Positions 14,681 to 53,810 of a stretch of DNA of 64,000 nt are shown piece after piece. Both the position numbers and the translations under genes were made by a program. How positions within the stretch are numbered: position 1 is the first letter of the stretch; each line of letters begins with the position of its first letter. A model generated the notes under the pieces. The model had not been told where the DNA came from. It was given only the letters and a program-made list of their open reading frames with translations, and did not search any database. Source of the DNA: Ceratodon purpureus (lineage: Eukaryota > Streptophyta > Bryopsida > Pseudoditrichales > Ditrichaceae); the NCBI GenBank assembly GCA_014871385.1, contig CM026426.1, positions 55,175,375 through 55,239,374 of the forward strand. Reading direction: 5' to 3'.

Positions 14681-15247
14681 TTACCAGTTAATGTCGTGCA
14701 TGGCGTGAAGCAACTTGCCCACATGGCCGCGGGGGTCTAGTATAATGCAATGTACTGAGATGTGCCATGCTGGGTCGTCCGCATGGTGCTTGTTTATATG
14801 TCGGAGCCAGGCAGCGAGGCGGTGGTTACCTTCCCAGACAAAGAACATCTTGTTGGTGAATTGCATCCACTCCTCGTCTCCACGGATCTCATCATCAAAA
14901 CGATCACTCGCGGCCCTCCATAAAGGGCTCCAACCAGCTATGGTCTCCGCCGTAACATCCTTCGTTTGCTCTTCACTGTTGTATATGGAGATGTACATGA
15001 CGCGGTCCCCATCTCTATACCCCTTAACAAACTCCCGCTCCAAGTGCTGTACCCCTATTTCGCCCACTGGTCTAACCTTGGCCATTGAAATCATCCTGCA
15101 CAGGGGCACCATTAAGCGGGACTTCCTTTCAGGTTGAATCCTGAGTTTGTTGATGACGCCAATGGAGTCCAGCTTGTATTGTTTACGGTGCTGCAATTCG
15201 CCTTCTAAAGCTGTCTTCAAGTCTTCCGGACAAGATGGTTTTCCCAA
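14681..15247 (-). CDS. ParB/sulfiredoxin-like domain protein
   Basis: Open frame of about 188 codons on the minus strand, ending 12 bp from the end of the plus-strand gene to its left (tail to tail). The strongest signal is FFVWEGNHRLAAWL near the C-terminal third. It fits the [D/E]GxHRxxA signature of the ParB/sulfiredoxin fold, where the Gly-x-His-Arg loop binds nucleotide. The first half (LMVPLCRMISMAKVRPVGEI) fits the strand-helix start of that fold. I see no helix-turn-helix. There is no ATG at the frame's start, so the exon may be preceded by another, and an acceptor just upstream (TTTACAG, near 15271) is out of frame. The role is unknown; a nuclease-like or CTPase-like activity is possible by analogy. 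Confidence 0.45.
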   Translation of the reverse strand: MGKPSCPEDLKTALEGELQHRKQYKLDSIGVINKLRIQPERKSRLMVPLCRMISMAKVRPVGEIGVQHLEREFVKGYRDGDRVMYISIYNSEEQTKDVTAETIAGWSPLWRAASDRFDDEIRGDEEWMQFTNKMFFVWEGNHRLAAWLRHINKHHADDPAWHISVHCIILDPRGHVGKLLHAMHDINW

Positions 15248-15397
15248 CGCTTCTTGTGTTTAAGTAACCTGTAAAACGGTGTGTAAATTAATGTTGGAAT
15301 CAAAACTTAGAAAGTCTTGCAAAATAGAGATATATGAAATCACTTCATAATGATATTTCGAATACAACAAGTTCAATATCATTTAAGCCTGAAGACT

Positions 15398-15991
15398 CTA
15401 TCGACGTGATGAACGCCTATAATACTCCCTAGACTGTCTACAGTTCCAATGACGGCGCCTCCTCCAGAAACGCCTCGTTTGTTGGACAGGGCATGGTAAA
15501 ATTGCCGTAAGGGCAAAAACAACATGGCTTGGCCGCCTCACTCTAATAGGCGAAGATGGAGAGGGTGCAGACATCGGTGGTGAATCCTGTATAGGAGAAG
15601 TGGGCATGTAGCGAGGGGAAGTAGGCTCATAGACAGGGGACGTAGGCATGTAAACTGGAGATGTAGGCATGTACTGTGGAGAATGGATCTCAGAAGGTAC
15701 AGTACCAAAACCTACAGAGATTGAGAGATCACAAGTACAGTAATGCTGATCAAATGAATCCGAAAGGTCCGAAACATTGATTACTGAAATGGGGGAATTA
15801 GCAGACACCTCTGGAGCATCGGAATATACCTAAGTTATGAAGAAGAAAAAGGTCAAATTCCAACTTAAAAGGGAGTTAAACAGTAATAATATGACACAAT
15901 AACGACGAAATTGCTGAATCATCTAAATATAAAGGTACACTGTAAGTACCTCCGTCTCCGCATGAGTGCAAACTTGTGCTTCGCTCCCCAT
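15398..15991 (-). CDS. Small protein with RNA polymerase II CTD-like heptads
   Basis: Two exons. The ATG at 15991 lies in a 60-base exon (16009-15950, acceptor GAAATTCAG, donor GTACTT). The second exon (15829-15398) has a strong acceptor (TTTTTCTTCTTCATAACTTAG) and the join is in phase, giving about 157 residues. Order: MGSEAQV start; a [10 protein letters not shown] patch resembling a SUMO-interaction motif; four heptads, YMPTSPV twice, YEPTSPR and YMPTSPI (about 15590-15674), matching the Pol II CTD heptad YSPTSPS at Tyr1, Pro3, Thr4, Ser5 and Pro6; a Ser/Pro stretch; then an Arg-rich tail ([16 protein letters not shown]). The acceptor before the first exon means the transcript could start further upstream, beyond the satellite. 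Function unknown; CTD mimicry is inference. Confidence 0.5.
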
Positions 15992-16056
15992 ATTATCCTC
16001 ACACGACTCCTGAATTTCACACCATATTAAAAAGATTATAATCATATTTGATTCCA

Positions 16057-22000: not shown

Positions 22001-25000
22001 AACAAGCAAGCATGTAGAAATAAAAAAAGGGATGCCGAGGTGCCTCATCGGCCCACCCTTGCAAGGCTGAGCCTCCGCACCCACTTCTTGCCTACGGCCA
22101 CTGAGAGCTTTCAAGGCCGAATGCTAACCAACAAGCAAGCATGTAGAAAAAAAAAAGTGATGCCGAGGTGCCTCATCGGCCCAGCCTTGCAAGGCTGAGC
22201 CTCCGCACCCACTGCTTGCCTACGGCCACTGAGAGCTTTCGGGGCCGAATGCTAACCAACAAGCAAGCATGTAGAAATAAAAAAAGGGATGCCGAGGTGC
22301 CTCATCGGCCCACCCTTGCAAGGCTGAGCCTCCGCACCCACTGCTTGCCTACGGCCACTGAGAGCTTTCGGGGCCGAATGCTAACCAACAAGCAAGCATG
22401 TAGAATAAAAAAAGGGATGCCGAGGTGCCTCATCGGCCCAGCCTTGCAAGGCTGAGCCTCCGCACCCACTGCTTGCCTACGGCCACTGAGAGCTTTCGGG
22501 GCCGAATGCTAACCAACAAGCAAGCATGTAGAAAATAAAAAGGACAGCGAGGTGCCTCATCGGCCCAGCCTTGCAAGGCTGAGCCTCCGCACCCACTGCT
22601 TGCCTACGGCCACTGAGAGCTTTCGGGGCCAAATGCTAACCAACAAGCAAGCATGTAGAAAAAAAAAAGGGATGCCGAGGTGCCTCATCGGCCCAGCCTT
22701 GCAAGGCTGAGCCTCCGCAGCCACTGCTTGCCTACGGCCACTGAGGGCTTTCGGGGCCGAATGCTAACCAACAAGCAAGCATGTAGAAAAAAAAAAGGGA
22801 TGCCGAGGTGCCTCATCGGCCTAGCCTTGCAAGGCTGAGCCTCCGCACCCACTACTTGCCTACGGCCACTGAGAGCTTTGGGGGCCAAATGCTAACCAAC
22901 AAGCAAGCATGTAGAAAAAAGAAAGGGATGCCGAGGTGCCTCATCGGCCTAGCCTTGCAAGGCTGAGCCTCCGCACCCACTGCTTGCCTAGGGCCACTGA
23001 GAGCTTTCGGGGCCGAATGCTAACCAACAAGCAAGCATGTAGAAAAAAAAAAGGGATGCCGAGGTGCCTCATCGGCCCAGCCTTGCAAGGCTGAGCCTCC
23101 GCACCCACTGCTTGCCTACGGCCACTGAGAGCTTTCGGGGCCGAATGCTAACCAACAAGCAAGCATGTAGAAAATAAAAAGGACAGCGAGGTGCCTCATC
23201 GGCCCAGCCTTGCAAGGCTGAGCCTCCGCACCCACTGCTTGCCTACGGCCACTGAGAGCTTTCGGGGCCAAATGCTAACCAACAAGCAAGCATGTAGAAA
23301 AAAAAAAGGGATGCCGAGGTGCCTCATCGGCCCAGCCTTGCAAGGGTGAGCCTCCGCACCCACTGCTTGCCTACGGCCACTGAGGGCTTTCGGGGCCGAA
23401 TGCTAACCAACAAGCAAGCATGTAGAAAAAAAAAAGGGATGCCGAGGTGCCTCATCGGCCTAGCCTTGCAAGGCTGAGCCTCCGCACCCACTACTTGCCT
23501 ACGGCCACTGAGAGCTTTGGGGGCCAAATGCTAACCAACAAGCAAGCATGTAGAAAAAAGAAAGGGATGCCGAGGTGCCTCATCGGCCTAGCCTTGCAAG
23601 GCTGAGCCTCCGCACCCACTGCTTGCCTAGGGCCACTGAGGGCTTTCGGGGCCGAATGCTAACCAACAAGCAAGCATGTAGAAAAAAAAAAGGGATGCCG
23701 AGGTGCCTCATCGGCCTAGCCTTGCAAGGCTGAGCCTCCGCACCCACTACTTGCCTACGGCCACTGAGAGCTTTGGGGGCCAAATGCTAACCAACAAGCA
23801 AGCATGTAGAAAAAAGAAAGGGATGCCGAGGTGCCTCATCGGCCTAGCCTTGCAAGGCTGAGCCTCCGCACCCACTGCTTGCCTAGGGCCACTGAGGGCT
23901 TTCGGGGCCGAATGCTAACCAACAAGCAAGCATGTAGAAAAAAAAAAGGGATGCCGAGGTGCCTCATCGGCCTAGCCTTGCAAGGCTGAGCCTCCGCACC
24001 CACTGCTTGCCTACGGCCACTGAGAGCTTTCGGGGCCGAATGCTAACCAACAATCAAGCATGTAGGAAAATGAAAGGGACGCCGAGGTGCCTCATCGGCC
24101 CAGCCTTGCAAGGCTGAGCCTCCGCACCCACTGCTTGCCTACGGCCACTGAGAGCTTTCGGGGCCGAATGCTAACCAACAAGCAAGCAGGTAGAAAAAAA
24201 AAAGGGATGCCCTGGTGCCTCATCAGCCCAGCCTTGCAAGGGTGAGCCTCCGCACCCTCTGCTTGCCTACGGCCACTGAGAGCTTTCGGGGCCGAATGCT
24301 TACCAACAAGCAAGCATGTTGAAAAAAAAAAGAGATGGCGAGGTGCCTCATCAGCCCAGCCTTGCAAGGCTGAGCCTCCGCACCCACTGCTTGCCTACGG
24401 CCACTCAGAGCTTTCACGGCCGAATGCTAACCAACAAGCAAGCATGTAGAAAAAAAAAAAGGGATGCCGAGGTGCCTCATCGGCCCAGCCTTGCAAGGCT
24501 GAGCCTCCGCACCCACTCCTTGCCTACGCCCACTGAGAGCTTTCGGGGCCGAATGCTAACCAACAAGCAAGCATGTAGAAAAAAGAAAGGGTTGCGGAGG
24601 TGCCTCATCGGCCCAGCCTTGCAAGGCTGAGCCTCCGCAGCCACTGCTTGCCTACGGCCACTAAGGGCTTTCGGGGCCGAATGCTAACCAACAAGCAAGC
24701 ATGTAGAAAAAAAAAAGGGATGCCGAGGTGCCTCATCGGCCCAGCCTTGCAAGGGTGAGCCTCTGCACCCACTGCTTGCCTATGGCCACTGAGAGCTTTC
24801 GGGGCCGAATGCTAACCAACAAGCAAGCATGTAGAAAAAAAAAGGGATGCCGAGGTGCCTCATCGGCCTAGCCTTGCAAGGCTGAGCCTCCGCACCCACT
24901 GCTTGCCTACGGCCACTGAGGGCTTTCGGGGCCGAATGCTAACCAACAAGCAAGCATGTAGAAAAAAAAAAGGGATGCCGAGGTGCCTCATCGGCCCAGC

Positions 25001-28000
25001 CTTGCAAGGGTGAGCCTCTGCACCCACTGCTTGCCTATGGCCACTGAGAGCTTTCGGGGCCGAATGCTAACCAACAAGCAAGCATGTAGAAAAAAAAAGG
25101 GTTGCGGAGGTGCCTCATCGGCCCAGCCTTGCAAGGCTGAGCCTCCGCAGCCACTGCTTGCCTACGGCCACTAAGGGCTTTCGGGGCCGAATGCTAACCA
25201 ACAAGCAAGCATGTAGAAAAAAAAAAGGGATGCCGAGGTGCCTCATCGGCCCAGCCTTGCAAGGGTGAGCCTCTGCACCCACTGCTTGCCTATGGCCACT
25301 GAGAGCTTTCGGGGCCGAATGCTAACCAACAAGCAAGCATGTAGAAAAAAGAAAGGGATGCCGAGGTGCCTCATCGGCCTAGCCTTGCAAGGCTGAGCCT
25401 CCGCACCCACTGCTTGCCTACGGCCACTGAGGGCTTTCGGGGCCGAATGCTAACCAACAAGCAAGCATGTAGAAAAAAAAAAGGGATGCCGAGGTGCCTC
25501 ATCGGCCCAGCCTTGCAAGGCTGAGCCTCCGCACCCACTGCTTGCCTACGGCCACTGACGGCTTTCGGGGCCGAATGCTAACCAACAAGCAAGCATGTAG
25601 AAAACAAAAAGGGATGCCGAGGTGCCTCATCGGCCTAGCCTTGCAAGGCTGAGCCTCCGCACCGACTACTTGCCTACGGCCACTAAGAGCTTTGGGGGCC
25701 AAATGCTTACCAACAAGCAAGCATGTAGAAAAAAGAAAGGGATGCCGAGGTTCCTCATCGGCCTAGCCTTGCAAGGCTGAGCCTCCGCACCCAGTGCTTG
25801 CCTACGGCCACTGAGGGCTTTCGGGGCCGAATGCTAACCAACAAGCAAGCATGTAGAAAAAAAAAAGGGATGCCGAGGTGCCTCATCGGCCTAGCCTTGC
25901 AAGGCTGAGCCTGCGCACCCACTGCTTGCCTACGGCCACTGAGAGCTTTCGGGGCCGAATGCTAACCAACAATCAAGCATGTAGAAAAATGAAAGGGACG
26001 CCGAGGTGCCTCATCGGACCAGCCTTGCAAGGCTGAGCCTCCGCACCCACTGCTTGCCTACGGCCACTGAGAGCTTTCAAGGCCGAATGCTTACCAACAA
26101 GCAAGCATGTAGAAAAAAAAAAGGGATGCCCAGGTGCCTCATCAGCCCAGCCTTGCAAGGCTGAGCCTCCGCACCCTCTGCTTGCCTACGGCCACTGAGA
26201 GCTTTCGGGGCCGAATGCTTACCAACAAGCAAGCATGTTGAAAAAAAAAAGAGATGGCGAGGTGCCTCATCAGCCCAGCCTTGCAAGGCTGAGCCTCCGC
26301 ACCCACTGCTTGCCTACGGCCACTCAGAGCTTTCAGGGCCGAATGCTAACCAACAAGCAAGCATGTAGAAAAAAAAAAAGGGATGCCGAGGTGCCTCATC
26401 GGCCCAGCCTTGCAAGGCTGAGCCTCCGCACCCACTCCTTGCCTACGCCCACTGAGAGCTTTCGGGGCCGAATGCTAACCAACAAGCAAGCATGTAGAAA
26501 AAAGAAAGGGTTGCGGAGGTGCCTCATCGGCCCAGCCTTGCAAGGCTGAGCCTCCGCAGCCACTGCTTGCCTACGGCCACTGAGGGCTTTCGGGGCCGAA
26601 TGCTAACCAACAAGCAAGCATGTAGAAAAAAAAAAGGGATGCCGAGGTGCCTCATCGGCCCAGCCTTGCAAGGGTGAGCCTCCGCACCCACTGCTTGCCT
26701 ATGGCCACTGAGAGCTTTCGGGGCCGAATGCTAACTAACAAGCAAGCATGTAGAAAATAAAAAGGGACAGCGAGGTGCCTCATCGGCCCAGCCTTGCAAG
26801 GCTGAGCCTCCGCACCCATTGCTTGTGTAGCGCCACTGAGAGCTTTCGGGGCCAAATGCTAACCAACAAGCAAGCATGTAGAAAAAAAAAAGGGATGCCG
26901 AGGTGCCTCATCGGCCTAGCCTTGCAAGGCTGAGCCTCCGCACCCAGTGCTTGCCTACGGCCACTGAGGGCTTTCGGGGCCGAATGCTAACCAACAAGCA
27001 AGCATGTAGAAAAAAAAAAGGGATGCCGAGGTGCCTCATCGGCCTAGCCTTGCAAGGCTGAGCCTCCGCACCCACTACTTGCCTACGGCCACTGAGAGCT
27101 TTGGGGGCCAAATGCTAACCAACAAGCAAGCATGTAGAAAAAAGAAAGGGATGCCGAGGTGCCTCATCGGCCTAGCCTTGCAAGGCTGAGCCTCCGCACC
27201 CACTGCTTGCCTAGGGCCACTGAGGGCTTTCGGGATCGAATGCTAACCAACAAGCAAGCATGTAGAAAAAAAAAAGGGATGCCGAGGTGCCTCATCGGCC
27301 TAGCCTTGCAAGGCTGAGCCTCCGCACCCACTGCTTGCCTACGGCCACTGAGAGCTTTCGGGGCCGAATGCTAACCAACAATCAAGCATGTAGAAAAATG
27401 AAAGAGACGCCGAGGTGCCTCATCGGCCCAGCCTTGCAAGGCTGAGCCTCCGCACCCACTGCTTGCCTACGGCCACTGAGAGCTTTCGGGGCCGAATGAT
27501 AACCAACAAGCAAGCATGTAGAAAATAAAAAGGGACAGCGAGGTGCCTCATCGGCCCAGCCTTGCAAGGCTGAGCCTCCGCACCCACTGCTTGCGTAGCG
27601 CCACTGAGAGCTTTCGGGGCCAAATGCTAACCAACAAGCAAGCATGTAGAAAAAAAAAAGGGATGCCGAGGTGCCTCATCGGCCTAGCCTTGCAAGGCTG
27701 AGCCTCCGCACCCACTGCTTGCCTACGGCCACTGAGGGCTTTCGGGGCCGAATGCTAACCAACAAGCAAGCATGTAGAAAAAAAAAAGGGATGCCGAGGT
27801 GCCTCATCGGCCTAGCCTTGCAAGGCTGAGCCTCCGCACCCACTACTTGCCTACGGCCACTGAGAGCTTTGGGGGCCAAATGCTAACCAACAAGCAAGCA
27901 TGTAGAAAAAAGAAAGGGATGCCGAGGTGCCTCATCGGCCTAGCCTTGCAAGGCTGAGCCTCCGCACCCACTGCTTGCCTAGGGCCACTGAGGGCTTTCG

Positions 28001-29252
28001 GGGCCGAATGCTAACCAACAAGCAAGCATGTAGAAAAAAAAAAGGGATGCCGAGGTGCCTCATCGGCCTAGCCTTGCAAGGCTGAGCCTCCGCACCCACT
28101 GCTTGCCTACGGCCACTGAGAGCTTTCGGGGCCGAATGCTAACCAACAATCAAGCATGTAGAAAAATGAAAGGGACGCCGAGGTGCCTCATCGGCCCAGC
28201 CTTGCAAGGCTGAGCCTCCGCACCCACTGCTTGCCTACGGCCACTGAGAGCTTTCGGGGCCGAATGCTAACCAACAAGCAAGCATGTAGAAAAATGAAAG
28301 GGACGCCGAGGTGCCTCATCGGCCCAGCCTTGCAAGGCTGAGCCTCCGCACCCACTGCTTGCCTACGCCCACTGAGAGCTTTCGGGGCCGAATGCTAACC
28401 AACAAGCAAGCATGTAGAAAAAAAAAAGGGATGCTGAGGTGCCTCATCTGCCCAGCCTTGCAAGGGTGAGCCTCCGCACCCACTGCTTGCCTACGGCCAC
28501 TGAGAGCTTTCGGGGCCGAATGCTAACCAACAATCAAGCATGTAGAAAAATGAAAGGGACGCCGAGGTGCCTCATCGGCCTAGCCTTGCAAGGCTGAGCC
28601 TCCGCACCCACTGCTTGCCTACGGCCACTGAGAGCTTTCGGGGCCGAATGCTAACCACTAAGCAAGCATGTAGAAAAAAAAAAGGGATGCCGAGGTGCCT
28701 CATCGGCCCAGCCTTGCAAGGCTGAGCCTCCGCACCCACTGCTTGCCTACGGCCACTGAGAGCTTTCGGGGCCGAATGCTAACCAACAAGCAAGCATGTA
28801 GAAAAAAAAAGGGATGCCGAGGTGCCTTATCGGCCCAGCCTTGCATGGCTGAGCCTCCGCACCCACTGCTTGCCTACGGCCACTGAGAGCTTTCGGGGCC
28901 GATTGCTAACCAACAAGCAAGCATGTAGAAAAAAAAAAGGGACGGCGAGGTGCCTCAACGGCCCAGCCTTGCAAGGCTGAGCCTCCGCACCCACTGCTTC
29001 CCTACGGCCACTGAGAGCTTTCGGGGCCGAATGCTTCTTAACAAGCAAGCATGTAGAAAAAAAAAAAGGGATGCCGAGGTGCCTCATCGGCCTAGCCTTT
29101 CAAGGCTGAGCATCCGCACCCTCTGCTTGCCTACGGCCACTGAGAGCTTTCGGGGCCGAATGCTAACCAACAAGCAAGCATGTAGAAAAAAAAAAGGGAC
29201 GCCGAGGTGCCTCATCGGCCCAGCCTTGCAAGGCTGAGCCTGCGCACCCACA
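16057..29252 (+). repeat. 128-bp satellite array, about 103 monomers
   Basis: Head-to-tail monomers start CACCCACTGCTTGCCTACGG and contain a tract of about ten A. They end with the perfect 16-bp palindrome CAGCCTTGCAAGGCTG flanked by GGCC and AGCC. The marker GCATGTAG is at 16120 and at about 29178, which gives 102 intervals averaging 128 bp. Most differences are single bases. Clear subtypes exist, for example CTTGCGTAGCGCC, GGGGGCCAAATG, GAGGGCTTTCGGGG and an A-tract broken by G, T or C. Short open frames through one to three units arise because an added base restores phase. They are not genes. No similar sequence is seen elsewhere in the window. Confidence 0.97.
26640..28175 (+). repeat. 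Higher-order repeat: 768-bp hexamer, two copies
   Basis: The order of monomer subtypes in about 26640-27400 is repeated in about 27408-28170, an exact offset of 768 = 6 x 128. Diagnostic features recurring at that spacing are the GAAAATAAAAAGGGACAGCG tract, the GTAGCGCC subtype, the ACTACTTGCC/GGGGGCCAAATG subtype and the GAAAAATGAAAG tract. A five-unit offset (640 bp) links 22530 with 23170, and a fifteen-unit offset links 24316 with 26235. Confidence 0.8.
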
Positions 29253-40985: not shown

Positions 40986-42418
40986 ACACTTTCATTACAA
41001 GAGTTGGAAGGAAGGAGATGTGGCTGTTGGATGCAGTACTGAAAAAGGCACCGTTATGGAGGACCTACCGATTTTCCCTTGATGGATTTGCTCAAGCAGT
41101 GTAGATCTCTCATTTGCGTGAAAATACTATTGCATGCGTGGGAGGTGATTGAATTGGAAGTATGGAGGACAGAAACAAAAGCAGTATTATCTACTAATGC
41201 GTACTGAATGAGCTTGTAGAGCTATACAAGGCATTGATAATTGCCGAAATCGTCATGTACATGCAATCTAGTCACTTGATAGCACGTACCATGTGTACAT
41301 GCAATCTATTTACTTGATTCTAGATACTCTTTGTACAATGACTTTGTATGATCACACAGTTGTTAGCACGTGTGGAATGTGCACTCCTGATATCTAAATC
41401 AGAACATGAGTATTATTATAGCTCTGTCCGACTATTTTGTCTACAGTTAATTAAGTGAGCTGGAAACCAGAAGAGGAGGAAGAAGACAACTGAAGCATAT
41501 AAGACCCTTTGGGGTGTGAATTGAAGCCACAGGTGACAATCCTACTTAACGATTTTCTCATTCTGTTTTGCGGTGTCTACTCACTTTAAATAAACGTGAT
41601 ATAAAGTCATATACTGTCATAGGTGACTAAATTCTACGTCTCCTTCAACGCAATGTATCGTCATTGTTGACGTGATAGAACCGGATCGTAACATCATGCA
41701 TAACGCGACGTAACGTAATAGTTAACGCTTTAGTCCAGAAAATCTAACTTCACTTATCACTAGATTGCCATTGAAATGGACTACCGTGGTAGCGATGGTT
41801 GAACGAGTCTGATTGCAAGCATTAAACCTCATAGCCATTTTTGTCATCTGTCTTGTTTTCCAAAATGTTATTCCTTTGAATTATGGTGTCCAACAAGTGA
41901 ACAGAGTTTGGTTTGAAACAGGGATTTGGGTCATTGAGATTGGATTCTTGGACACGCAGAGCAAACAAGAGACTCTAAACCTAGGTAGCAATCCACTCTC
42001 CACTTACTAGGAACTTTATTCGATGAACATGTAACCAATATCACCTTATATCATTGCTTTTGTTATATGATCTGAGTACGTCATACCAGCGTCATTTTTT
42101 TGCGTCATTGGAAACGCATTCTAACATAATGTAATGCTATCCAGACGTCACATGCCGTCACTTGAAACGCGACATAAGCTTTTCAGGTTATGGGTGACTA
42201 CAAAGCGGTTATGTTTGCAATTGCCAATCTCTCGCATAATTGCTCGAGTCTTATGCGTTGGTATGATTACTTGCATTGTCGGAACGAGTAGAGGGAGCTG
42301 AACTTAAAATTCGTCACAATGTTTGCTCCTCTGAAGTGTTCTTTTATTTCTCATTCTCATTTTTTGTTTGCAATTTCCCGTGCATCTTTCCATCGTCGTG
42401 CAGATTTTGCAGGCAGCT
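40986..42418. other. Intergenic DNA with GTGATGTAATGTCA-like clusters
   Basis: No full gene. Degenerate copies of the GTCAC word family at about 41575-41735 and 42085-42185 bracket a short open frame (41813-42010) that I do not trust. A stretch near 41460-41540 reads like an exon ending in DPLGCELKPQ before GTGACA, but I could not place it. Confidence 0.35.
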
Positions 42419-42826
42419 ATGGCAGGCAATTCATCCAGAGGGCCAGGGACCGCAAGAATCTGGGAGGACCCGTAAGTTTTTTTCTTAATCTCAAATTCTA
42501 TGCTTAGTGACATTTTTCCTTTACCACATTTGGAAATGCACTAGTCCGTGTCCGTCTTATAATGAAGTGCACCATTAAGAGAGGTGCTGTGAGGAGCATT
42601 CTCTTGGTATCGTAATTAGTTTCCTTAGTGCGACGTGACCTTGTAGTGTAACAGAGTAGGACTATCCACATCCATATAAACCCAATTCCTGATTTTATTC
42701 ACTTAAAACCCTAAGCTTCAAACATAAACTGTACGGATTAGAGAACCTTACCTTACACAATACACTGTACGGACACTGTAACTTGCTTCAGTGATCCCTT
42801 GATGCATTGTTCACATATCCTTAGTC

Positions 42827-43429
42827 TATCGGGGGATCTCTCGATGCGTCGGTATCCCCTTCCCATTCTTTGGGAACGGCAAGCCATCGCGAGATCTCCC
42901 GATGACCTTTTCACTTGAAACCACTATTGATGCATCAGTATCCCCTTCCCATTCTGTGGGAACGGCAAGCCATCGCGGGATGTCCCAATGACCATTCTGC
43001 ACATGTCTTGGGTCCGTCGGGGGATCCCTCGATGCGTCGGTATCCCTATCTCATCCTGTTGTTACGGCAGAACATCGGGGGATCTCTCGATGACCCACTC
43101 ACTAGAAACCATATTCATAAAACATAAACTAATAACCAGGTAACCTCACCCTGGACAATACACTGTATGGACAGTGCTAATTGCTTTTGGGATCCCTTAA
43201 TGCTTAGGTATCATATCCTTGGTCCATCGGGGGGTCCCTCGGTGTGTTGGTATCCCCTTCCCATCCTGTGGGTATGGCAGAACATTGAGGGATCTCTCGA
43301 TGACCTCATTGCCCCTTTCGTCCCTCTGCTTTTTACTATGGTCCTCCTAGATAGTTGTTGTCCTGTTAGTAATGTGCATAGCCCCTCATGCGTGTGTATG
43401 AATCAAAGTGATCGAGAGATCCCCCGATG
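42827..43429. repeat. Intron 1 cluster of GATC-centred palindromes, including 78-bp paired modules
   Basis: Copies of CATCGRGRGATCYCYCGATG start at 42827, 42885, 42971, 43015, 43073, 43225, 43283 and 43410. Three pairs have exactly 58 bp between starts. Each pair is joined by a spacer GCGTCGGTATCCCC followed by TTCCCA, a short loop and TGGGAA (or a decayed form). A fourth module has lost its left palindrome (about 42913-42990). Confidence 0.85.
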
Positions 43430-44835
43430 ATCAGATTTATATAACTATGAAATGATTTGGAGCAAGAATTTGACCAACAGTGGTGTATGTCTGTTCTGCA
43501 GGGAACAACAAGTATTGGAACCACCAAGTGACCACAGACCCGTGAAGCTGTTCCCCTTTATTGATAGTTGGATCCATGGTTTCAATTTCGATGGTGAATC
43601 AAATCGCTGCGCAATCTACCGCTGCGATAAGAACGTCACCGCATGGGCTATGTGACGGAAGGATACGGCAGGAGGCATGGCCGTCATTGTCCCCCATCTC
43701 ACCTGTGATTTGCGGATCCATTCCCCGATTGGATTCAACGTTCTCGAACTGAAAGGCCTTGACGCGGAGACAGCTATCATGGTGGTGGAGGAGAAGATGC
43801 CGAAGTCCGATCGGACTCTAACTTATGGACTGATCCTCGACCTCTGTAAGCTCAGCCTGATTTAGTGTGCATCCCTCACTGCCAAGGGGTTCATGTACTT
43901 GCCGGAGGATAAGGCGAAGTGGACTCCGGCACATATTGAAAATCAGTGGAACCAAATTGACGAGGCGCTTTGAGGTTGCAGCTGCTGCTCCTCGTCAATT
44001 GCAGGCTCCGACTGCGTCTACTTCTATCAAGACGCGGGGCACAAAACGGAAATCATCCTTGATCAATGACGGGGAAACTGCGGTGCCTGACACAGGGAAG
44101 GGCAAGAAGGGAAAGGCTGATGACAAGCTCACTCTTCAGCAGTGTGTGACAATGTCAGCTTTGGATATTGAGAAGCTGGACAAGACGAAGCGGACAGAGA
44201 TGAAGAACTTGTACAACGAGGCTTTGGAACCCCTGTACAGGTGGGGCCACGAGAGGCTGAAGGATGAGAAGGAAGCGCCAATAACTGTGCATTTCTCAAA
44301 GCTGCACAGGGCCCCTCCAGGTTCAATTGTCTACCGAGGACTTATTCCAGAAAGGTTAAAAGCCTTGATGAACCAGGCGCACATCGCTCCGAGGTACAGT
44401 GGAACAGATAGAGAAATCACTGTACTTCCACTGAAGAAGGGACCGTATGGAGAAAAAGGTCTCGTAGAGTTTTTCAATAAACCTACGGAAAAGAATCAGA
44501 TAAAGAGCTCCACGAACTTCTACATCATTGGGGGTCAGCATACGGTTCAGTGTTACCGAGATCTCGTCGAGAGTGGGGAAATTGATGGGGCTGACAAAGA
44601 CAAGGCGTCGAAGTTCTCAATCATCCCAGTGCGGGCGCCCAAGCATGAGCACATCAAGCACATGCTCCTCTCACGTGTCCTAAACCAGGATATGGCCGGC
44701 CCACAGAAGGAGCACACATTCATGATGCAGGCGCTCAATGCCTGAATTAAGTGGAAAGAGATGAAGAAGCCGATGCCAGCTTTACAGGGACGGCAACACC
44801 CTAAAGAATTTCTGGTAAGTCTGTATTCCCTCCCT

Positions 44836-44982
44836 CATCGAGAGATCCCCCGATGATCCGAGTTGTATATCTGTATATGTATCAAAGTCATCGAGAGATC
44901 CCCCAATGATCTGAGTTGTAGAAATGTTTATGGCTTCTTAGTGTATTCCTCATACTTCTCATCATCAGGGGATCCCTCGATG
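44836..44982. repeat. Intron 2 cluster of GATC-centred palindromes
   Basis: Three copies at 44836, 44889 and 44963. The first two are followed by the same GATCYGAGTTGTA phrase. They lie between the donor at 44815 and the acceptor at 45037. Confidence 0.8.
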
Positions 44983-45280
44983 GCAACTTCCTCATCGGAG
45001 AGCGCTACTAACCCTTCCTCCGAAAATTGGTAAGCAGGAATTTGTTCCAGCGCTCGCATTGATCTTGAAAAACGTGAAGGAATCAGAGCTAAGGGACTGC
45101 AAGATACCTCTACTGTTTATTGAAGACGACACGGCCGTTGACCGATGGGTGGAGATTGAGAAACAGTACATGAAGGGGAAGCTGCCAGATGCGCAAGGGA
45201 ATGTGCAGACGAACTATGACCTCAAGCGTAAGCCTTTTGTTGAGAATGACTTAAAACCGCTATACGGCCCGCGCTCAGAG

Positions 45281-46041
45281 CTCGGGGGTTGCACTTAGTG
45301 GAAGGAGTAGAACTATACGTGCGAACAAATATAGGGTGGCAAATAAACATTGGATCAAAAAATTATAATTCAATTTTATCTACTATAGGATATCTAGAAT
45401 GTCATTGAATGTCTTCAAACTACCATAGGGTGTTGAATAATAGGGCTAGATTTTAAAAAATTGGACATAAGATACCCGTCTTTATATTCAATTTTTGGGC
45501 CTGGGTCCTTGATTTGTACTAATTTGACATTCAGACGTGCAATAAATGAATTTTTTTAGTGGGATCAGAAACTTCATACCGAGCTTCATACCTTGCTCAC
45601 TTGAGGGCATTTACAGCCTGTTTTTGGTGGACTGGTTTAGGCCATCAGTTTGAATCTCAGATCGACAGTGGACATTGTAATGTACACCTGTGAATGCTTG
45701 TAATGTGCATATACTTTTGAATTATAGCTTTGAAGTGAGTTGGCATGTATTTATGTTGTGTTCCATGTTTGCAAAAAAATTAATGTGACTTTTAGGAATC
45801 AGAGTGCAAAAAAATACAATAGAAGAAAAAAATACAATACAATAAAACAAAAGTAACCATACGATTTATTGTGGCAATTTGAAATTCTAATTAATGAATG
45901 CCCCCATTTAAATGAGTCATAATTGAGAATTATATAATGATAGAGTATGGAATAATCATTTTCCAAAAAATAATACCCCCCTATAAAATACCCTTTGTTC
46001 GCACGTGTATTCTTATTTTTTAGAAGAGTGCACCCCCCGAG
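45281..46041. mobile_element. hAT-type MITE inside an exon
   Basis: 761-bp AT-rich insertion with terminal inverted repeats of about 48 bp. The left end starts CTCGGGGGTTGCACTTAG and the right end complement starts CTCGGGGGGTGCACTCTT. Both then carry ACGTGCGAACAAA. An exact 8-bp target duplication GCTCAGAG flanks it (45273-45280 and 46042-46049), typical of hAT elements. No coding capacity. The host reading frame on the left continues in frame on the right of the duplication, which fixes the insertion as later than the host gene. Confidence 0.88.
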
Positions 46042-47415
46042 GCTCAGAGGATATCCACTACCTTGCTGACCTTGTAGAGAGGAAAGAAATCTCTGTGAAG
46101 GGATCGAAGGCCACCAAAGGTGATAAAGTGGCGAGATTACCGTCCTTTCAAATAGCAGGGATTAGGGAACGACTGGTCAGGCTGATGAAGAACGAGTTGA
46201 TGAGCACCTATTGTGGTTGGGAGCTTCCAAGCCGTAAGAGCTCATACGTAATGTATCCTGCACATGAATGGGACGAGTTTGCCGATTCCAAGTCCATCAC
46301 TCGCGCGGAGCTGGAGAGCTGGCTCAATAAGGCGTATGCAACGGCTGCGAAGAAGAAGTGGTTGGACGAACCAAACAAGAACCTCAACAAGACGTCTGAT
46401 CTTGCGGACGTGCCTGACTTTGTTAAGGTGATGAGGGACGCACACATATTCACACAAGAGCAAGCAAATGGGGCATCGCACATCCAAAGGGGGTTCAAAA
46501 CAAAGTACAAGTGCATGGTTACGGAGAGGATTAGGCCCGACATTTCTGGCCTTCTAGGAAGTGAAGAAGTGTATCAATGGAGAGGAGGGGGAAAAATACA
46601 CATATTCATGTACTTCATGTTTGATGCGATTGCTGACATGCCAGTGAAAGCTCAGGTGCTGGCCGAGAACAGGCTGAATCGGATATTCGATCCTCTAGAA
46701 GGCCAGGAACGAAACAGTATGCAGGTCTTTGCACACTCAAGAACAGTTCTCTTCATAGATGCGGCAGGATTCCATGCCACACTTACGCACCTTGAAACGC
46801 GCACGAGGATAGTAAAGAGGAAGTTGTGGAACTGGCATGTGATCCACTACGTCCCTTCCCGCGAGGGCGGATTTCTTGAGGCAGAGGTGGGTTCTTTGTA
46901 TGTTGTGTACATGATTTTCTGCTTCGCTTATTCGGCAACGCAGTCAACAAAGGAATGCTTCGGGGATTTCTTTGCGGGGAAGAGGCCATTTGACGCAGTG
47001 TACCTGGCCAAGGACATTATGGAAACCATCTAGCAATGGAAACGACCTGGTCGACCAACGATTAAGTTGGCCGCGCTTTCTACTCTCTTTCAGCAGCATA
47101 TCAAAGATAACATGGTACTTGTAAATGTCAACGGTGGGGCTCACTTCACCCACCTTGGACTTGTAAGTACTCTGTCTGCATCCTTCAAATGCTGAAGTCA
47201 TACTGTTAATTTCTCTAAATGACTCGAACGCTTCCACTTTATTTCACATGTGTGCAAATAGGCTGTTTTTCGAGAGGCTTGTTATGCAGATGTCATCCAT
47301 TTATAATACTCGCGATATATGCATTTGTTCACTCACGTATATAGAAGCTATGTCAGGGGTCCTTTTTTGTTCTCAGCCTCAGTGTTTCCTGATATGTCTT
47401 CACGGATGCAAGACT

Positions 47416-47496
47416 TATCGGGGGATCCCTCGATGGACGGTTAACGTCTAGAATGACGGTATAGGGGTTCTCAAATCATCGAGGGATCCCCGGATA
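47416..47496. repeat. Intron 3 pair of GATC-centred palindromes
   Basis: Copies at 47416-47435 and 47477-47496, in the intron between 47163 and 47622. The second copy has lost its last bases. Confidence 0.75.
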
Positions 47497-48514
47497 AATC
47501 TTGCACTTCGCACCACATTTCCCCACACCTCTGAACCCTTACGCAATGAAAGTGAACTTGACATTTGGTTAGAGTGTGCTGTTCGCATTTCATACATGTT
47601 CTTATCGCCTGCATGTCTACAGGAAAACGAAGCCATGGTCCTGGAAGTTGTCTTCTCTGACGATGAGAAGGAACATGCTCAGAAGACGTCGAAGCAGATA
47701 TGGGACATACTTTACAAGGATACAGTTGACCCAGATGTCTTGGTAGTCAATGATGATGAAGATGATGACGATGATGATGAGGCAGCCGGTGGAGAGGGTA
47801 ATGATGAAGATGGAGTGGCTGATGATGAAGATGGCCGCGGACAAGCTCCGCTTAATGATTCCGAATCCAACTCTCAGGACGAGGAGACGGCTTGCACCTT
47901 GGTAGGTTTTGAACCGTAGGCAGGCCCTCGCACCTCTTTTTTGTTTGCTTAGCACTGCACCTCGGGTTAACTTCCAAGGCATTGTAGTATGCATGTAACG
48001 TATACTCGAACCTAATTTCTACTGTACTGCAGCTTTTCTTACCGCTAATGGTGTCCTGCGCTCATATTGCAGGGACTGCTGAACTCCGCGCGAGTTTACG
48101 GTGGTGCTGCGTCGAGGGATCACACCATTGACGATTCTCACGTGGGGGAGTCCTTGACGCCATGAAGCGATCTTGCCACCGTGTCGGGCAACATGAAGGA
48201 CGTAGCTCGGTGGCTGCTAGATATGAGAACATCACCGGTGGATCACCAGACTCAGACTATGGATCCTGAAGGTGGCGCAGGAGACGTGGGAGAGGGTGCT
48301 AAGGGGCTGGAGGACTTGGACTTTAATGTCGAGAACTTTGCTACGGTTTCGCGAAATATTGATTTTGCACTAGCACGAGAGGAGGTTGCGGGAGTTGTCA
48401 GGGATAGGGACGGGACGAACAGGGATGCTGCGGACGCGGAAGGGATTCCTCCTCTTGAAGAGCAGGAGACTGAGGGAGGAGTAGCTGATACTCAGCATGC
48501 ACCGAGCATCCCAC

Positions 48515-48534
48515 CATCGGGAGATATCCCGATG
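48515..48534. repeat. Exonic copy of the GATC-type palindrome
   Basis: CATCGGGAGATATCCCGATG, a perfect 20-bp palindrome with centre GATATC rather than GGATCC-like. It is the only copy within an inferred exon (frame reads PSGDIPMI). Confidence 0.7.
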
Positions 48535-49324
48535 ATAAAAGGCACAACACCTGATCCAAGCCATCACCCCCCCCCGTAACTGAGGAGTGCACTCCTCAGA
48601 GTTCGCAGTCCCTCGCTCCTACTGTGATCCCATCCAACCCCCCGCCTCCGAGTACATTTCCCGAGGAGACCCATCAGTCTCCCCCCGTGGCACCTGTCAT
48701 GAACGAAGATATTGTTGACGACACTCTGAAGGATTTAGACACGTTCAGCCCGGGGAAGAAGAGATGCGACGCGGAAGCCCTGGTGTGCAACGATGTGAAG
48801 GCATGTGACGATGTCAAAGACAAAGACACGGAAGAGGAGGAGAAAGACCTGGATTTATATGAAGGGCTCCCAGACAAGGCACTTACGGAGGTATTCACCG
48901 AGCGAGATCTAGTCATGGTGGAGAAATCTAAGGCCGGAGATCGTGATAGTCGCTCACTTGTGCTGCAGAAGGGATTGAAGCATTTGCAACAATGCCTTCT
49001 GCCGGACCTTCCGTTGGGAACAACATCGGCCCCCCCGGCCACACTAAGCAAGGATAAGACTGGGCCTAGCATTGGAACGGGAGTCAAGGGGAAGGGAAAA
49101 GACACCGGCGCTAAGAGAGAGGGTAAGAGAAAGCACTCTAGCAGGAATTCCTGCTAGTCTGGACGAACCGGTAAGGCAGCACATATCCCAGCGAGGGAAT
49201 TACACCCCACCCTCTCGCAGTGCTAAGTATATTGAAGTAGTTAGAGAGGCTCACGAGTTCGTTTACAAGGACTATAATGATACCATCGCATTTACTTATA
49301 ATTTTGAAAAAAAACCTTTACCAG

Positions 49325-50338
49325 ATGCCGACGTCTAAGACGGTGGGCATTTCATCGGAAGTCCAAGATCCGAATTCGGACGACAATGCGAAAGGTATCT
49401 AGTCGGACTTTAATTGTAGGACTGATAGTTTTCATGTTCTCAGATTGGACATGTGTAGATCGTGTAGTGTCTCCCGTAGATGCTTGAGGAATTTAGTGAA
49501 CATTTGTATCGAGGGATCTCCCGATGCTGAATTTTGATGAGACATATTTTCAGTGGACATCTATATCGAGGGATCTCCCGATGCTGAATGTTGATCAGAC
49601 CTGTTTACAGTGGACATCTGTATTGAGGGATCTCCCGATGCTGAATTCTGATGAGACCTTTTTTTGTTGCATTTTCCAGGGCCCCCTCTCCCATCCTCTG
49701 TTCCAGCAAAGGTGATCAGAAAGGTACCCGGTCGAAGGTATTCGGTTGTACTAGACTTAAACGGGGTTCTCATTCACCTTGGAAATTTTGTCAAGGGAAA
49801 AAAGCGCCCCATAATGATCAGACCTGGCTGCTAGGAATTCCTGAACTGGCTTTTTAATCACGCAATGGTAGCCTTTTGGACCAGCATCGCGGCTAAGAAT
49901 GTACCTTAAACTCTTCATATTGTTCTTCAAGGCACCTCCTTCAAGCTGCCAAATGTGCAGGTTCTTAGCCAGAACAATTGCATACGTTCGTCATACGTGG
50001 AGTCGTCAAAACCAGACAAGCCGTTCTTTCTAAAGGATCTCCGTGTCTACGCTAAGTTGCTGGGATTGGAGTCCGTTGAGGAAGTCCTACTAGTGGATGA
50101 TAGTCCATAGAAGAACCTTCTCAACGATCCTCATAAAGCTGTCCACCCCCCAACCTGGTCCGGGGATGATAATGATAGGTTTACTACGATGATACTGAAA
50201 CCGTGGCTGGAGGGTCTATTCAAATCAGGCGAAGTTGTCACAGAATATGTGAAACGGGCCCCGCTTCCGTTTGGTCAGTTACCCATCGACCGGTCGTCAG
50301 ACTTGGTAGTGAAGATATTGAGGGGCGTTGTGGTTTAG
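49325..50338 (+). pseudogene. FCP1-like HAD domain protein, copy 1, interrupted
   Basis: Exon 1 49325-49394 (MPTSKTVGISSEVQD, donor GTATCT). Exon 2 49680-50338 after TTTTCCAG, joined in phase 1. Exon 2 begins with a basic linker and then YSVVLDLNGVLIH, the HAD motif I in the DLNG form seen in many plant FCP1/SCP-like proteins (second Asp replaced by Asn). MVAFWTSIAAKN is motif II and EEVLLVDDSP is the Asp-Asp motif. The C-terminal part (DRFTTMILKPWLEGLF) is typical of the domain end. FCP1/SCP family members dephosphorylate Ser-phosphate, notably on the RNA polymerase II CTD; this copy has a few stops and is probably inactive. It starts directly after the end of the ParB-like gene and may be its 3' partner. 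Confidence 0.65.
49507..49640. repeat. Three GATC-centred palindromes at 57-bp spacing
   Basis: Copies at 49507, 49564 and 49621, each followed by CTGAATTYTGATSAGACC-like sequence, so this is a 57-bp tandem unit of three. It lies in the intron between 49395 and 49679. Confidence 0.8.
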
Positions 50339-50615
50339 TACAAATGACTTTGGATTTTGGAACACTCATTTTATTCAGAGTTCTTCATTGTCAACACATA
50401 CATTCTCTCACATGACCATGTAATGAAGCTGTAGCTCCCTCATCTTTGATAGCGAAATGAAACTAACCAAGTTCCTTAAAATTTGCATTTGTCTTCCTGA
50501 ATGCAATGGAGTTTTGGAACTTTGAATTTGTTTTGTTTTAAAATCACTTTGCTGTGGTAATACTCTTTCAAGACATGGTCTGACCACCTCTGTGTGCCAT
50601 GGCGTTGGGAGGCAC

Positions 50616-50685
50616 CATCGAGATATCCCCCGATGAACTATGTTAGCAAATACATCATTTACAAACATCGGAAGATCCCCCGATG
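50616..50685. repeat. Two GATC-centred palindromes upstream of HAD copy 2
   Basis: Copies at 50616-50635 and 50666-50685, in the non-coding gap between the two HAD units. Three weaker relatives (CGGAAGATCTCCTGATC type) follow at about 51592, 51685 and 51780. Confidence 0.75.
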
Positions 50686-50732
50686 TTTAGTCTCTGTAGA
50701 AATGTCCTGATATTTGTATTTCAACTGTGCAG

Positions 50733-51236
50733 AAGGCGATAGTTCTCTCGGTTAATGGCGTCCTGTGCTTTGAGGATTATAAGGGATTCGGCCCGCCGTT
50801 GCTGGACTTAGGGAATGTCATTTGCCGTCCTGGGATTCGACCGTTCTTTCGAAAGCTTCTTGAAGATTTCCATGTCGGAATATGGTCATGTATGCCCCCA
50901 TCCCGCTTAGACCTTGTCTTAGCGCATCTGCTTCCACTGAAGCTTAGATCGCAGTTAATTTTGGTGTATGGTCAGGACAAGTGTGTTCGACAGAAGCCTT
51001 ATCCATTCTTCCAGAAGTTCCTGCAACGACTTCGTATGGATAAAAAAACTCGCAGGTTTTGCAAACCGGGTAAAGTTCTCATGGTAGATGACTGTGAATG
51101 GAAGAATGTAATGAATGGAAATCATTCCTGCTATTTCCCGACTCCTTGGAAGGGTGAAATGCACCTACCTAATCCGCGAAACGTCATACCAGACGTCGGC
51201 ACAGCCTTACTTCTATTCATTATAGATTTGGTTTAG
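50733..51236 (+). CDS. FCP1-like HAD domain, copy 2, motif I changed
   Basis: Open exon of 167 codons after a good acceptor (TTTCAACTGTGCAG), ending at TAG 51236. Motif I reads AIVLSVNGVLCF, so both catalytic Asp positions are replaced (Ser and Asn). Motif II is HVGIWSCMPPSRLD and the Asp-Asp motif is VLMVDDCEWKN, both kept. RPGIRPFFRKLLEDF and KPYPFFQKFL match usual FCP1-like segments. This predicts a catalytically dead but possibly folded phosphatase-like domain, or a relic. No first exon was found. It may be a tandem duplicate of the gene at 49325. Two GATC-type palindromes (50616, 50666) lie just upstream. Confidence 0.6.
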   Translation, partial: KAIVLSVNGVLCFEDYKGFGPPLLDLGNVICRPGIRPFFRKLLEDFHVGIWSCMPPSRLDLVLAHLLPLKLRSQLILVYGQDKCVRQKPYPFFQKFLQRLRMDKKTRRFCKPGKVLMVDDCEWKNVMNGNHSCYFPTPWKGEMHLPNPRNVIPDVGTALLLFIIDLV

Positions 51237-53810
51237 TATGACTCCGTTACTGAGTTCCTGCAGAAAACTCCCATGGATGGGGAATTATGTAGGAGATCAC
51301 TTAGGCAATGGTACACCACTAGAGTAGAACAATAGACAGTACATACAGTGAGTTGCTTACAATCCCGTGTCCCTATGTACCACAATGTATTAGTGGTAAT
51401 AATATGGCACCGTTCATTCGAATTACTTTCATGACAATACCTCATATTTATGTAACCCGTTTTTTGTAATGTGAATGACTATTTCACCATCATCGGTCTA
51501 TGTGTATTATTTGTAATGTTATATTACTTAGTTTGTCCATACCATTTCACTCGTGCAATTGTGAGATGGCTGTTGTTCTTCCGGAAGACACCTATAACGG
51601 GAAATCTCCTGATCCATGGTTTTGCAAAACACACATTATTCATTACATTACTTTGTCCATACATCTGTTCTTCCAAAACACCACTATATCGGAAGATCTC
51701 CTGATCCATGGACTTGCAAATCATACAATGTTCTATACATTACTTAGTCCACACATTTCCCCCGACTTGGAACAACACTATATCGGAAGATCTCCTGATC
51801 CAATCATTCAAATAATACACTGTTCATAACAGTGGGGCATGGTTTTACTAAGCCCCTTTCATTTGCCTTTGCTTTTTCTGGACGATCCATAGTCCATAAT
51901 TCAATGAATAGTCCAGAAATAGGTAAATATGGCATATAGGATTACAAGGCATATGTGGAAGAATCCAATTAGGTGCTCATTAACCTACGTACCCAAGTCG
52001 TGAATTTCGAGTTAAAATTGACCGTTGCGCACGAGCAAGTGGACGCCTTGGAGAAGGTGCGGAACTTAACGATCGAACGCACACACTGGGTGGAGCAGCA
52101 GGACTTGGGCTACATTGCCCACTGTAAGACCCTAAATGAGGCTCCAGCACCAATTCTGGAAATCTTGGCCTTAGTCTAGAATCTTAGTCCAGTACCAATT
52201 CTAAAAAAACATGGGCCTTCATGAATTCGGTCAGATTTGGGGCCCTTTTCAACAGTTGACTCAAAGATATTGTAATGGGGCTATCCAATATCTTTCTTCC
52301 TACCAAGGTGCGTAATGTTTCTTGTGATGGTCCTTTGTACTAGTCCCCCTTGCTATTTCCAGTTCTTGCTGTACTATCTTTGTATTGTAATTGAGAGTGT
52401 CAGAGTCTGAAAATCCTGCCCACTCATTATCCAGTAACTTGCCTTCTCCTCATTCCTTTTCTGTTGTTTTCAGGGTATTATTGACCTTCTCTGCTTCACC
52501 CTTCTTGTGCTCCTCTCAAAGTTGAATTTCCTATAAGGCCTCCTACATAGAATTTTGTATCCTTTCTTCCTCTTGCCAATCCTCCTTTGTTTTGGCTTTC
52601 CTTGGTTCAGGTTCCTATGACTCATCTTGGATAGGTAGGAGTCCTGCCTTTTGGCGCCAAGCTTTGGTCATAGTAGCTCTGGCCATAGATTGGTGCCTCT
52701 TCAACTTCTCCTTTAGTTCGTGAGAAACCCTACCGACCGCATTGCTGATCCACTCATCCACTGACCTCGATGTCCACAAATGAAGCTCAATAAATCTCTT
52801 ATAAAACTTTATCTCAGCTACCGCTACAGCCTCCCCTATCTCTTGCTGCAAACATGCACTGTATGAATGAAATAAAATAGCAATCTCCAAGATGCAAACA
52901 ATGTATCAAACATAATTGGTTTGACTTGTAAATCTAGCAATTTATATTTGATGTAGAACTGAGTTCACGCCTTCTAAAATCAGAGGGTGCTTTGAGGCCT
53001 TCCTTGCTTGACTTTAGCGCGGTCAAGTGTGGCCTTAGAGACAATACTTTAAAAATAAGAGAAGGGTTGTGACGCAATGTTCTGAATTTTGTAAAGTCTA
53101 TGAACGAGGTTTGTTTCAACATGGGATTTTTTATTCCTCCTAATGCACAATTTACAAATATTTAATTAGTATAATGATTCTACCACCAAAAAAGAGGAAT
53201 GTATATAAAATTATAAAGACACTCACCAATTTACTTCATGAAGAACTGTGATAACGGATCCCACATCCCCTTGTGATCATGCCAAAGCCATGTTGTAGTT
53301 TGATGTTCTTCTTGTGCCACTTACGACTCCATTTCTCCACAATTACATCTGATACATCGGTTGTAAAGCCCAAATTGTCCTCGAATTCCACGTAAATGAA
53401 TCCATTGCCTTCCATGTATCCGCACTTGATAAAGTGCGATGCCAATTGTTAGAGGTCATTCTTGAGAGAAGGTCTTACAACTGGCACGGAGGTTATTCTT
53501 GCATAACAATATGCTTAATCTACCCTTAGCTGAAGATTGCCACTTCACACTCTCAAGCCTTGCCATGGTGTTGACACATGCGTTGCCAACTAGATTGTGT
53601 AGTTGCAGCTATACTTCTGTCTGCGTAACCTCCACTACAATTGAATCTGCAAGGATCGACAAACACACAATCAATCCAAATGATATGCTCGCTACGGCTT
53701 GCCATGCTCTCCCTTCTATGCCAACCGCGAGGCGTACACTAGCTAACAGTCTGAACAGAACTAGTCAGAAGTGCAAAAATAATAAGATGGCTTAATAGTA
53801 AGATCATAGC
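51237..53810. other. Mostly non-coding, with decayed coiled-coil and exon-like fragments
   Basis: Plus strand 51973-52179 carries a helix-forming fragment (LKLTVAHEQVDALEKVRN). On the minus strand 52890-52615 has SVDEWISNAVGRVSHELKEK, and 53445-53236 has EKWSRKWHKKNIKLQHGFG followed by a donor-like GTGAGT near 53225. The two minus-strand parts could be pieces of one old gene, but no consistent frame links them. I do not recognise a family. Confidence 0.3.

Follow-up and report, generated by a model that had tools for sequence, protein, structure and literature searches.

The window, the whole 64,000-nt stretch of moss DNA analysed here, contains a series of GATC-centred 20-bp palindromes that an earlier note had assigned to one gene pair. 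What was described as a gene pair is a decayed remnant (42344–51935) of the right part of a transposon of ~22.4 kb, family 1 in what follows. Compared by blastn with an intact copy (copy A), the window copy is 85–94% identical in the long blocks, dropping to 70–81% over intron 1, and nothing in the window matches by blastn the left ~13 kb of copy A, which includes the transposase. Its features are listed below (+, forward strand; entries without a sign are unstranded).

42344–51935 (+): DUF7869 transposon of family 1, right part of one copy (blastn comparison with copy A; right end)
42827–43429: eight palindromes, intron 1 of the ParB-like gene (splice sites by eye)
43502–44814 (+): exon with a GGQH loop ('ParB-like'), with stops and a frameshift in the window copy
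44836–44982: three palindromes, intron 2
45281–46041: later 761-bp insertion in exon 3, with an 8-bp repeat on either side (alignment blocks, sequence)
47416–47496: two palindromes, intron 3
48515–48534: one palindrome, last exon of the ParB-like gene, outside the parts aligned between families
49495–49664: 57-bp tandem array with three palindromes, ahead of the first phosphatase-like exon
50616–50685: two palindromes, between both phosphatase-like exons
50700–51233 (+): second NIF/HAD phosphatase-like reading frame (PF03031, E 9.2e-05)
51574–51802: 92-bp tandem array with decayed sites, adjoining the right end
51910–51935: right terminal inverted repeat, one base different from the family repeat

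A scan of the window recovered all 19 palindromes that the note had reported, each with ≤3 mismatches and two as the exact word, against a mean of 0.01 sites (largest 1) in shuffled sequence. The rest of the window holds no further site at ≤3 mismatches, as had been claimed, and the decayed forms described near 51590–51780 were found at 51687 and 51781 (inner 18 bases seen). On exon and intron positions predicted from splice sites placed by eye, intron 1 (42472–43501) carries eight of the 19 sites, intron 2 (from 44815) three and intron 3 (47163–47622) two, with three more ahead of the first phosphatase-like exon and two ahead of the second; the site at 48515 is the sole exonic one, and the statement that all but one copy fall in introns or gaps therefore holds. 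The insertion at 45281–46041 is foreign to the transposon itself.

Family-1 elements encode a DUF7869 protein and have 26-bp inverted ends (ATGCC) with 4-bp target duplications. Of 11 end pairs, each selected for its 22–23 kb spacing, 10 show the duplication; the terminal ends have 142 exact 25-base matches in the genome. DUF7869 (PF25273) matches a copy A frame of 671 codons with E 3.3e-44 and a score of 151 bits (cut-off 26), and in a Pfam scan of eight copy A frames only DUF7869 and NIF exceeded their cut-offs. A literature search by the Pfam name DUF7869 returned no paper on this transposon class. Near-identical copies occur on several chromosomes, and C6, which fits a sex chromosome, carries both intact and decayed copies. 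The 39 sites of copy A are spread along its length, mostly internally, those closest to both ends having four mismatches.

Genome-wide, the family-1 word has 1092 exact occurrences and its reversed-pattern control none, so that 'one gene pair' proves too narrow a description: the placeable occurrences lie in one transposon family. Among the matches listed, 50 of the 1092, forming five clusters on C1 and C2, are all in family 1. The C1:128.9-kb cluster is without a family-1 exon match, yet is 71–78% identical to copy A. All ten perfect palindromes also lie in family 1, nine of them ≤1 kb from a family-1 exon match and the tenth (C6:46548255) 17.6 kb inside a transposon end. Neither a random scatter through the genome nor homologues whose introns lack the word was seen among the matches listed.

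The sites are conserved well beyond their surroundings. Between separate clusters the 20 bp show identities of 0.85 and 0.95, and the flanks 0.25 and 0.26, which is chance. In the intron-1 region of family 1, measured on the window copy together with 28 loci chosen by rank of score after removal of one identical locus, sites accumulated 0.87 substitutions per aligned 20-mer (201 comparisons) against 2.55 in nearby windows (2209 comparisons), a rate of change roughly a third of that in the DNA nearby; among near-identical copies, sites and flanks show no difference. The best-kept intron site is present with ≤2 mismatches in 29 of 29 other aligned copies, which bears out the expectation that homologues carry the word in their introns. 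Site number varies through gain and loss of tandem units: 22 of 29 copies lack two of the 12 examined sites together with the tandem unit that holds them.

In matching places, a sister family has a palindrome of its own. The motif of family 2 is GATCGTAGGATCCTACGATC and that of family 1 CATCGRGRGATCYCYCGATG; nATCGnnnGATCnnnCGATn is the frame common to both, and the differences fall at a few inner positions and at the outermost base. There is no cross-occurrence at up to three mismatches in the two copies read. The comparison covers two families with one fully read copy each, that of family 2 having 36 sites, and in the six corresponding gaps around conserved exons both families have sites. The family-2 motif occurs exactly 609 times in the genome (reversed-pattern control, 0); the 50 among the matches listed fall into three groups, on C1 and C2, and every group is ≤10 kb from a family-2 exon match. 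The motif of family 2 is retained in the two diverged copies of that family examined (protein identity 67% and 72%), and no intermediate step was therefore seen. A search for a third motif family (same outer frame, pyrimidine at position 7) gave 58 forward genome matches against 7 reversed, but most of the candidates printed were (ATCG)n-like and four were family-2 motif variants; two matches from a gapped pattern search led to nothing.

Sites avoid the coding stretches conserved between families: these fill 30% (family 1) and 45% (family 2) of the scanned stretches and contain 1 of 39 and 0 of 36 sites, respectively, a contrast whose P values overstate the evidence because sites within one cluster are not independent. 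Local protein identity between families is 60–66% for the transposase (46% for its N-terminal exon), 40% and 55% for the phosphatase-like frames, 28% for the ParB-like exon and 27% for the exon after it. Among frames with a between-family blastp match, a set outside which the last exon of the ParB-like gene falls, the catalytic transposase exon is thus the best conserved despite the change of motif, and the two alignable exons of the ParB-like gene are the most divergent.

The ParB-like exon is an open frame of 468 codons in intact copies, and its GGQH loop is ParB-like by eye. Its dN/dS is 0.34 and 0.25 between copy A and the intact copies L010 and L020, and 0.19–0.44 across ten pairs compared, ratios that show purifying selection on the exon in intact copies. 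Homology to ParB itself found no support. Searches of the product returned nothing from Pfam at E≤1 or from NCBIfam at E≤5 and, in PHROGs, one match of unknown function (E 0.098, family 2 only) and no ParB; in PDB searches (phmmer and hmmsearch) the single protein had no match, and the profile matched two surface-layer chains (E 0.12 and 0.57). An hhalign comparison with a second, GNHR-loop frame of the window lent ParB no support, no DNA-binding domain was recognised in these sequence searches, and of 16 stretches matching a pattern in a search for viral-contig relatives none was confirmed. Two AlphaFold models were of low confidence (mean pLDDT 34.6 and 45.1), and a Foldseek search with the second had no match at E≤0.001. 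Of the note's original interpretation, the part tying an iterated palindrome to a gene family and to the introns of its homologues stands; the link to ParB and parS drew nothing from the sequence searches and nothing usable from the fold models.

We propose that a sequence-specific protein encoded by the self-mobile transposon binds the palindromes iterated along it; that some protein binds them is, judging from the sequence patterns, probable. Different tags in matching places suggest that each family encodes a protein recognising its own copies, and protein and sites may have diverged together, so that each family would mark its own copies, family 1 by one palindrome and family 2 by the other. 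The likeliest candidate binder is the product of the large ParB-like gene, in which the two exons that align between families have diverged more than any others in the comparison, a candidacy that we consider evenly poised; every gene of the element is linked to its motif, and the transposase or another product could therefore be the binder. The likeliest use would be to recognise sister copies and keep them open against host silencing, as VANC does on VANDAL, although anti-silencing as the purpose, suggested by analogy, falls slightly short of an even chance. Taken as a whole, our reading of the palindromes as putative binding-site arrays for a fast-evolving element-encoded protein, with self-recognition and anti-silencing as their likeliest use, seems to us about as probable as its negation.

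Alternatively, the sites could be bound by the transposase, or by an accessory protein like TnpA, and have a role in excision, transposition or self-regulation, as the subterminal motifs of CACTA elements do. The inverted ends, target duplications and open transposase-like frame fit such a role, and CACTA motifs likewise differ between subfamilies (PMC2613891); since TnpA is reported to activate and demethylate Spm (PMC10398659), this alternative overlaps with our preferred reading. We nevertheless think it unlikely, if a serious contender, as most sites are internal over ~22 kb, the end-nearest ones have four mismatches, and no other compared frame is as well conserved as the catalytic transposase exon, despite the switch of motif. 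Cis-regulatory elements for a host protein (with an enhancer, insulator or splicing role) exploited by the transposon would account for the conservation of the sites and their preference for introns and gaps, but are improbable given two sister families with different motifs in one host and placeable genome sites that, among the matches listed, are all within the elements.

Passive repeats without function, spread by tandem duplication and conversion or as a mobile 20-bp palindrome, would be consistent with the changing number of tandem units and with the two window arrays detected as tandem repeats. Such repeats would give no reason to expect that matching gaps hold different motifs, and the chance-level flanks between clusters and the slow change of the sites speak against them; moreover, among the 64 absences counted over 12 sites in 29 copies, not one had lost just the 20 bp and kept both flanks (15 further cases aligned only partly), leaving mobile insertion unsupported and passive repeats as a whole decidedly improbable. 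The palindromes could also fold as RNA hairpins in introns and UTRs, and pair counts over the 58 family-1 sites of copy A and the window are mixed: at pair 8–13, G–T (G–U in RNA) outnumbers A–C by 34 to 9 on the + strand, but at pair 6–15, A–C, unpaired in RNA, occurs 20 times against 18 for G–T. With sites also in gaps between opposite-strand genes, an RNA role is disfavoured and highly improbable. In bacterial ParB–parS systems palindromes are iterated in and near the gene, and the moss palindromes likewise lie inside and next to a gene whose loop looks ParB-like by eye; a true partition or clustering system is nonetheless very doubtful, as the product has no ParB sequence match, the structure models are too poor to help, and no ParA-like gene is among the Pfam matches of the scanned frames. 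Unlike the bacterial arrays, the moss palindromes sit in a plant transposon. It would be a long shot, too, for a parS-like system to have evolved independently in a eukaryotic transposon superfamily, its ParB-like protein loading at family-specific palindromes and spreading along each ~22 kb copy to keep it from being silenced, and with a joint change of specificity in protein and palindrome whenever families split.

If correct, the proposed self-recognition would add a further, unrelated example of plant transposons that tag themselves family by family, this one from a moss. The shared frame and few differing positions make protein–DNA co-divergence directly testable by protein and motif swaps, and the near-identical copies on different chromosomes, together with the intact and decayed copies on C6, provide a natural comparison.

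Among large DNA transposons, CACTA elements (Spm/En with its TnpA sites; soybean Tgmt*, 20.5 kb) resemble the moss element in having repeated motifs that differ between subfamilies, for which the authors expect matching DNA-binding proteins (PMC2613891); a separate DNA-binding protein is putative in the moss element. CACTA motifs are subterminal, whereas the moss sites lie throughout, and CACTA ends begin CACTA with 3-bp duplications, against ATGCC and 4 bp here. In the VANDAL elements of Arabidopsis, the transposase is reportedly conserved, VANC is divergent and its targets lie in non-coding tandem repeats (PMC5735166), with anti-silencing shown for VANC on VANDAL21 and VANDAL6 (PMC5735166, PMC10398659) and proposed by analogy for the moss element. 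Both systems have short family-specific motifs, tandemly iterated in introns and other non-coding parts and differing between related families, alongside a conserved transposase and a divergent recognising protein, which in the moss element is a candidate. VANDAL, by contrast, is Mutator-like with a 9-mer motif, and the moss element has a DUF7869 transposase-like protein, ~22 kb of length and a 20-bp palindrome; neither a Mutator-like transposase nor the VANC domains DUF1985 and DUF287 were found in the Pfam scan of eight copy A frames. The moss element is a transposon unrelated to VANDAL that may have arrived at an analogous family-specific tagging.

All 19 of the GATC-centred 20-bp palindromes that the earlier note had placed in the window are present (0.01 expected in shuffles), and we find that they belong to a transposon. 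Searching the genome that holds the window (G000) with the gene of that note recovered 136 matched stretches on several contigs, many with an open 468-codon frame; 15 of them, 31-33% identical to the query gene, constitute a second family. Two family-1 copies, A on contig C1 and B on C8, align across about 18.5 kb (the fetched part of B past its position 20899 has no long match to A), and the window copy matches the right part of A alone, starting at window 42344. Copy A spans about 22.4 kb, from its left end to a right end near position 24622. The transposon ends carry an inverted repeat, ATGCCATATTTAACTATTTCTGGACT, whose 25-base form occurs 142 times in G000 (75 forward, 67 reverse), and 10 of 11 end pairs, hand-picked as +/- neighbours at 22-23 kb spacing among the matches listed, show a 4-bp target duplication. 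The transposon codes for a DUF7869-domain protein (E 3.3e-44) and has two frames that resemble NIF/HAD phosphatases. Because matches to its 671-codon DUF7869 frame are all at least 85% identical, many 99-100% (66 scored of 1387 first-look candidates), these sequences suggest that family 1 was recently active; the window copy is a decayed fragment, with stops and a frameshift in its ParB-like exon (the 468-codon frame). DUF7869 is very abundant in G000 (1399 first-look candidates, all 150 scored exceeding the cut-off), with recurring frame lengths of 678, 966, 980 and 942 codons; the domain search matched 0 of 14 control genomes. Inside the transposon, copy A 11798-13372 is a tandem array with a unit of about 127 bp, its length differing between A and B.

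Other features of the window
16053-29251: satellite array, 13 kb, about 103 repeats of 128 bp with 93% matches
45281-46041: 761-bp insertion in exon 3 (the exon after the ParB-like one) of the transposon copy, 8-bp repeat gctcagag each side

The satellite has a recurring CTTGCAAG core, and the insertion, with inverted ends CTCGGGGG..., is presumably hAT-like by those ends and its 8-bp repeat.

The family-1 word has 1092 exact matches in G000 (362.5 Mb, 151 contigs), where its reversed control pattern has none. The contig carrying the window (C6) is 110,524,308 bases long, the other contigs making up 69.5% of G000; a review (PMC9273592) gives Ceratodon purpureus sex chromosomes of 110.5 and 112.2 Mb, autosomes of about 69% of the assembly and a genome of around 300 Mb, somewhat under that of G000. 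The window is very probably part of a sex chromosome of Ceratodon.

At up to 3 mismatches, copy A holds 39 sites and the fetched part of B 30, and the arrays vary in number: 12 sites in A versus 8 in B before the transposase, 3 versus 5 in one intron. Sites of one cluster most often lie 57-58 bp apart in family 1, where spacings of 44, 55 and 74 bp form additional peaks, and 56-60 bp apart in family 2. Between clusters, identity over the 20 positions is 0.85 in family 1 (13 clusters) and 0.95 in family 2 (8 clusters), against 0.254 and 0.259 in the flanks; the edge of conservation is sharp in family 1, and family 2 has about two more weakly conserved bases per side. Across 29 other copies of the intron-1 region, sites carry 0.87 substitutions per 20-mer versus 2.55 in nearby windows, nearly all non-coding. 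Compared with A, the window copy has an identity of 0.915 in sites, 0.889 in coding sequence and 0.813 in the remaining non-coding sequence, and near-identical copies show no difference between sites and other sequence. Family-1 sites shun two equal halves, with 5 of 171 exact sites (distinct contexts, from fetched loci) equal at positions 6 and 8 versus 53.6 expected for independent halves, a contrast inflated by the sites' shared descent. The whole of G000 contains 10 instances of the perfect GGGG/CCCC form, and 22 of 36 sites in the family-2 copy read are perfect palindromes.

That copy, a sister element on C3 (copy C) whose left end lies outside the fetched stretch, carries its 36 sites as another palindrome, GATCGTAGGATCCTACGATC, with 609 exact copies in G000. 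Both motifs are GATC-centred 20-mers sharing the frame nATCGnnnGATCnnnCGATn, and at up to 3 mismatches neither of the two copies, one per family, contains the other family's motif. In these copies, sites occupy six corresponding gaps around conserved exons.

Sites per gap, family 1 and family 2
Before catalytic transposase exon: 4 and 5
Catalytic transposase exon to its N-terminal exon: 1 and 4
Transposase N-terminal exon to ParB-like exon: 21 and 12
ParB-like exon to exon 3: 3 and 4
Exon 3 to first phosphatase exon, including less conserved exons: 7 and 10
Between phosphatase exons: 2 and 1

The stretch beyond the last exon has 0 sites in either family, and conserved coding stretches contain 1 in family 1 and 0 in family 2. 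The family-2 motif is retained in two copies of that family that have diverged to 72% and 67% protein identity.

Protein identity, family 1 versus family 2
Catalytic transposase exon: 60-66%
Transposase N-terminal exon: 46%
ParB-like exon: 28%
Exon 3: 27%
Two phosphatase-like frames: 40% and 55%

Active HAD enzymes carry a DxD motif; DLNG and SVNG stand in its place in the phosphatase-like genes of both families, at copy A 22220-24018 and copy C 14323-16242, so these genes may, judging from their sequences, be inactive pseudo-phosphatases. Elsewhere in G000, generic ATCG...GATC...CGAT sites form two groups of four that mirror each other (C9:838918-842065 and 1078368-1081515) and perhaps represent another iterated family.

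A sequence-specific protein encoded by the element would recognise the palindromes, protein and sites having presumably diverged together between the families. Of the frames that can be compared, the ParB-like exon and exon 3 have diverged furthest; taking the two as one gene, we propose its product as the most likely binder. The ParB link proposed earlier came from a loop seen by eye; sequence searches lent it no support, and structure models of the product were too poor to bear on a ParB fold. A second frame with a loop ParB-like by eye (GNHR; window 14684-15259, minus strand) matched no Pfam family above the cut-off, no NCBIfam or PHROG entry and, by hhalign, not the transposon protein.

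Palindrome binding could alternatively be of a CACTA-like kind, the arrays serving as subterminal TnpA-type sites do in CACTA elements (PMC2613891). We infer both palindrome binding and anti-silencing. Among the matches listed, judged by title, literature on DUF7869, ParB and transposons, moss transposons and anti-silencing, and family-specific palindromes held no account of such a system. Arabidopsis VANC proteins, as described in PMC5735166, bind short motifs that lie within non-coding tandem repeats of the VANDAL family to which they belong and remove methylation, the motifs changing from family to family while the transposase is much more conserved. By analogy, the pattern of sites and proteins in the moss transposon fits VANC-type self-recognition and suggests that self-tagging arrays, known from VANDAL, occur here in a transposon unrelated to it.
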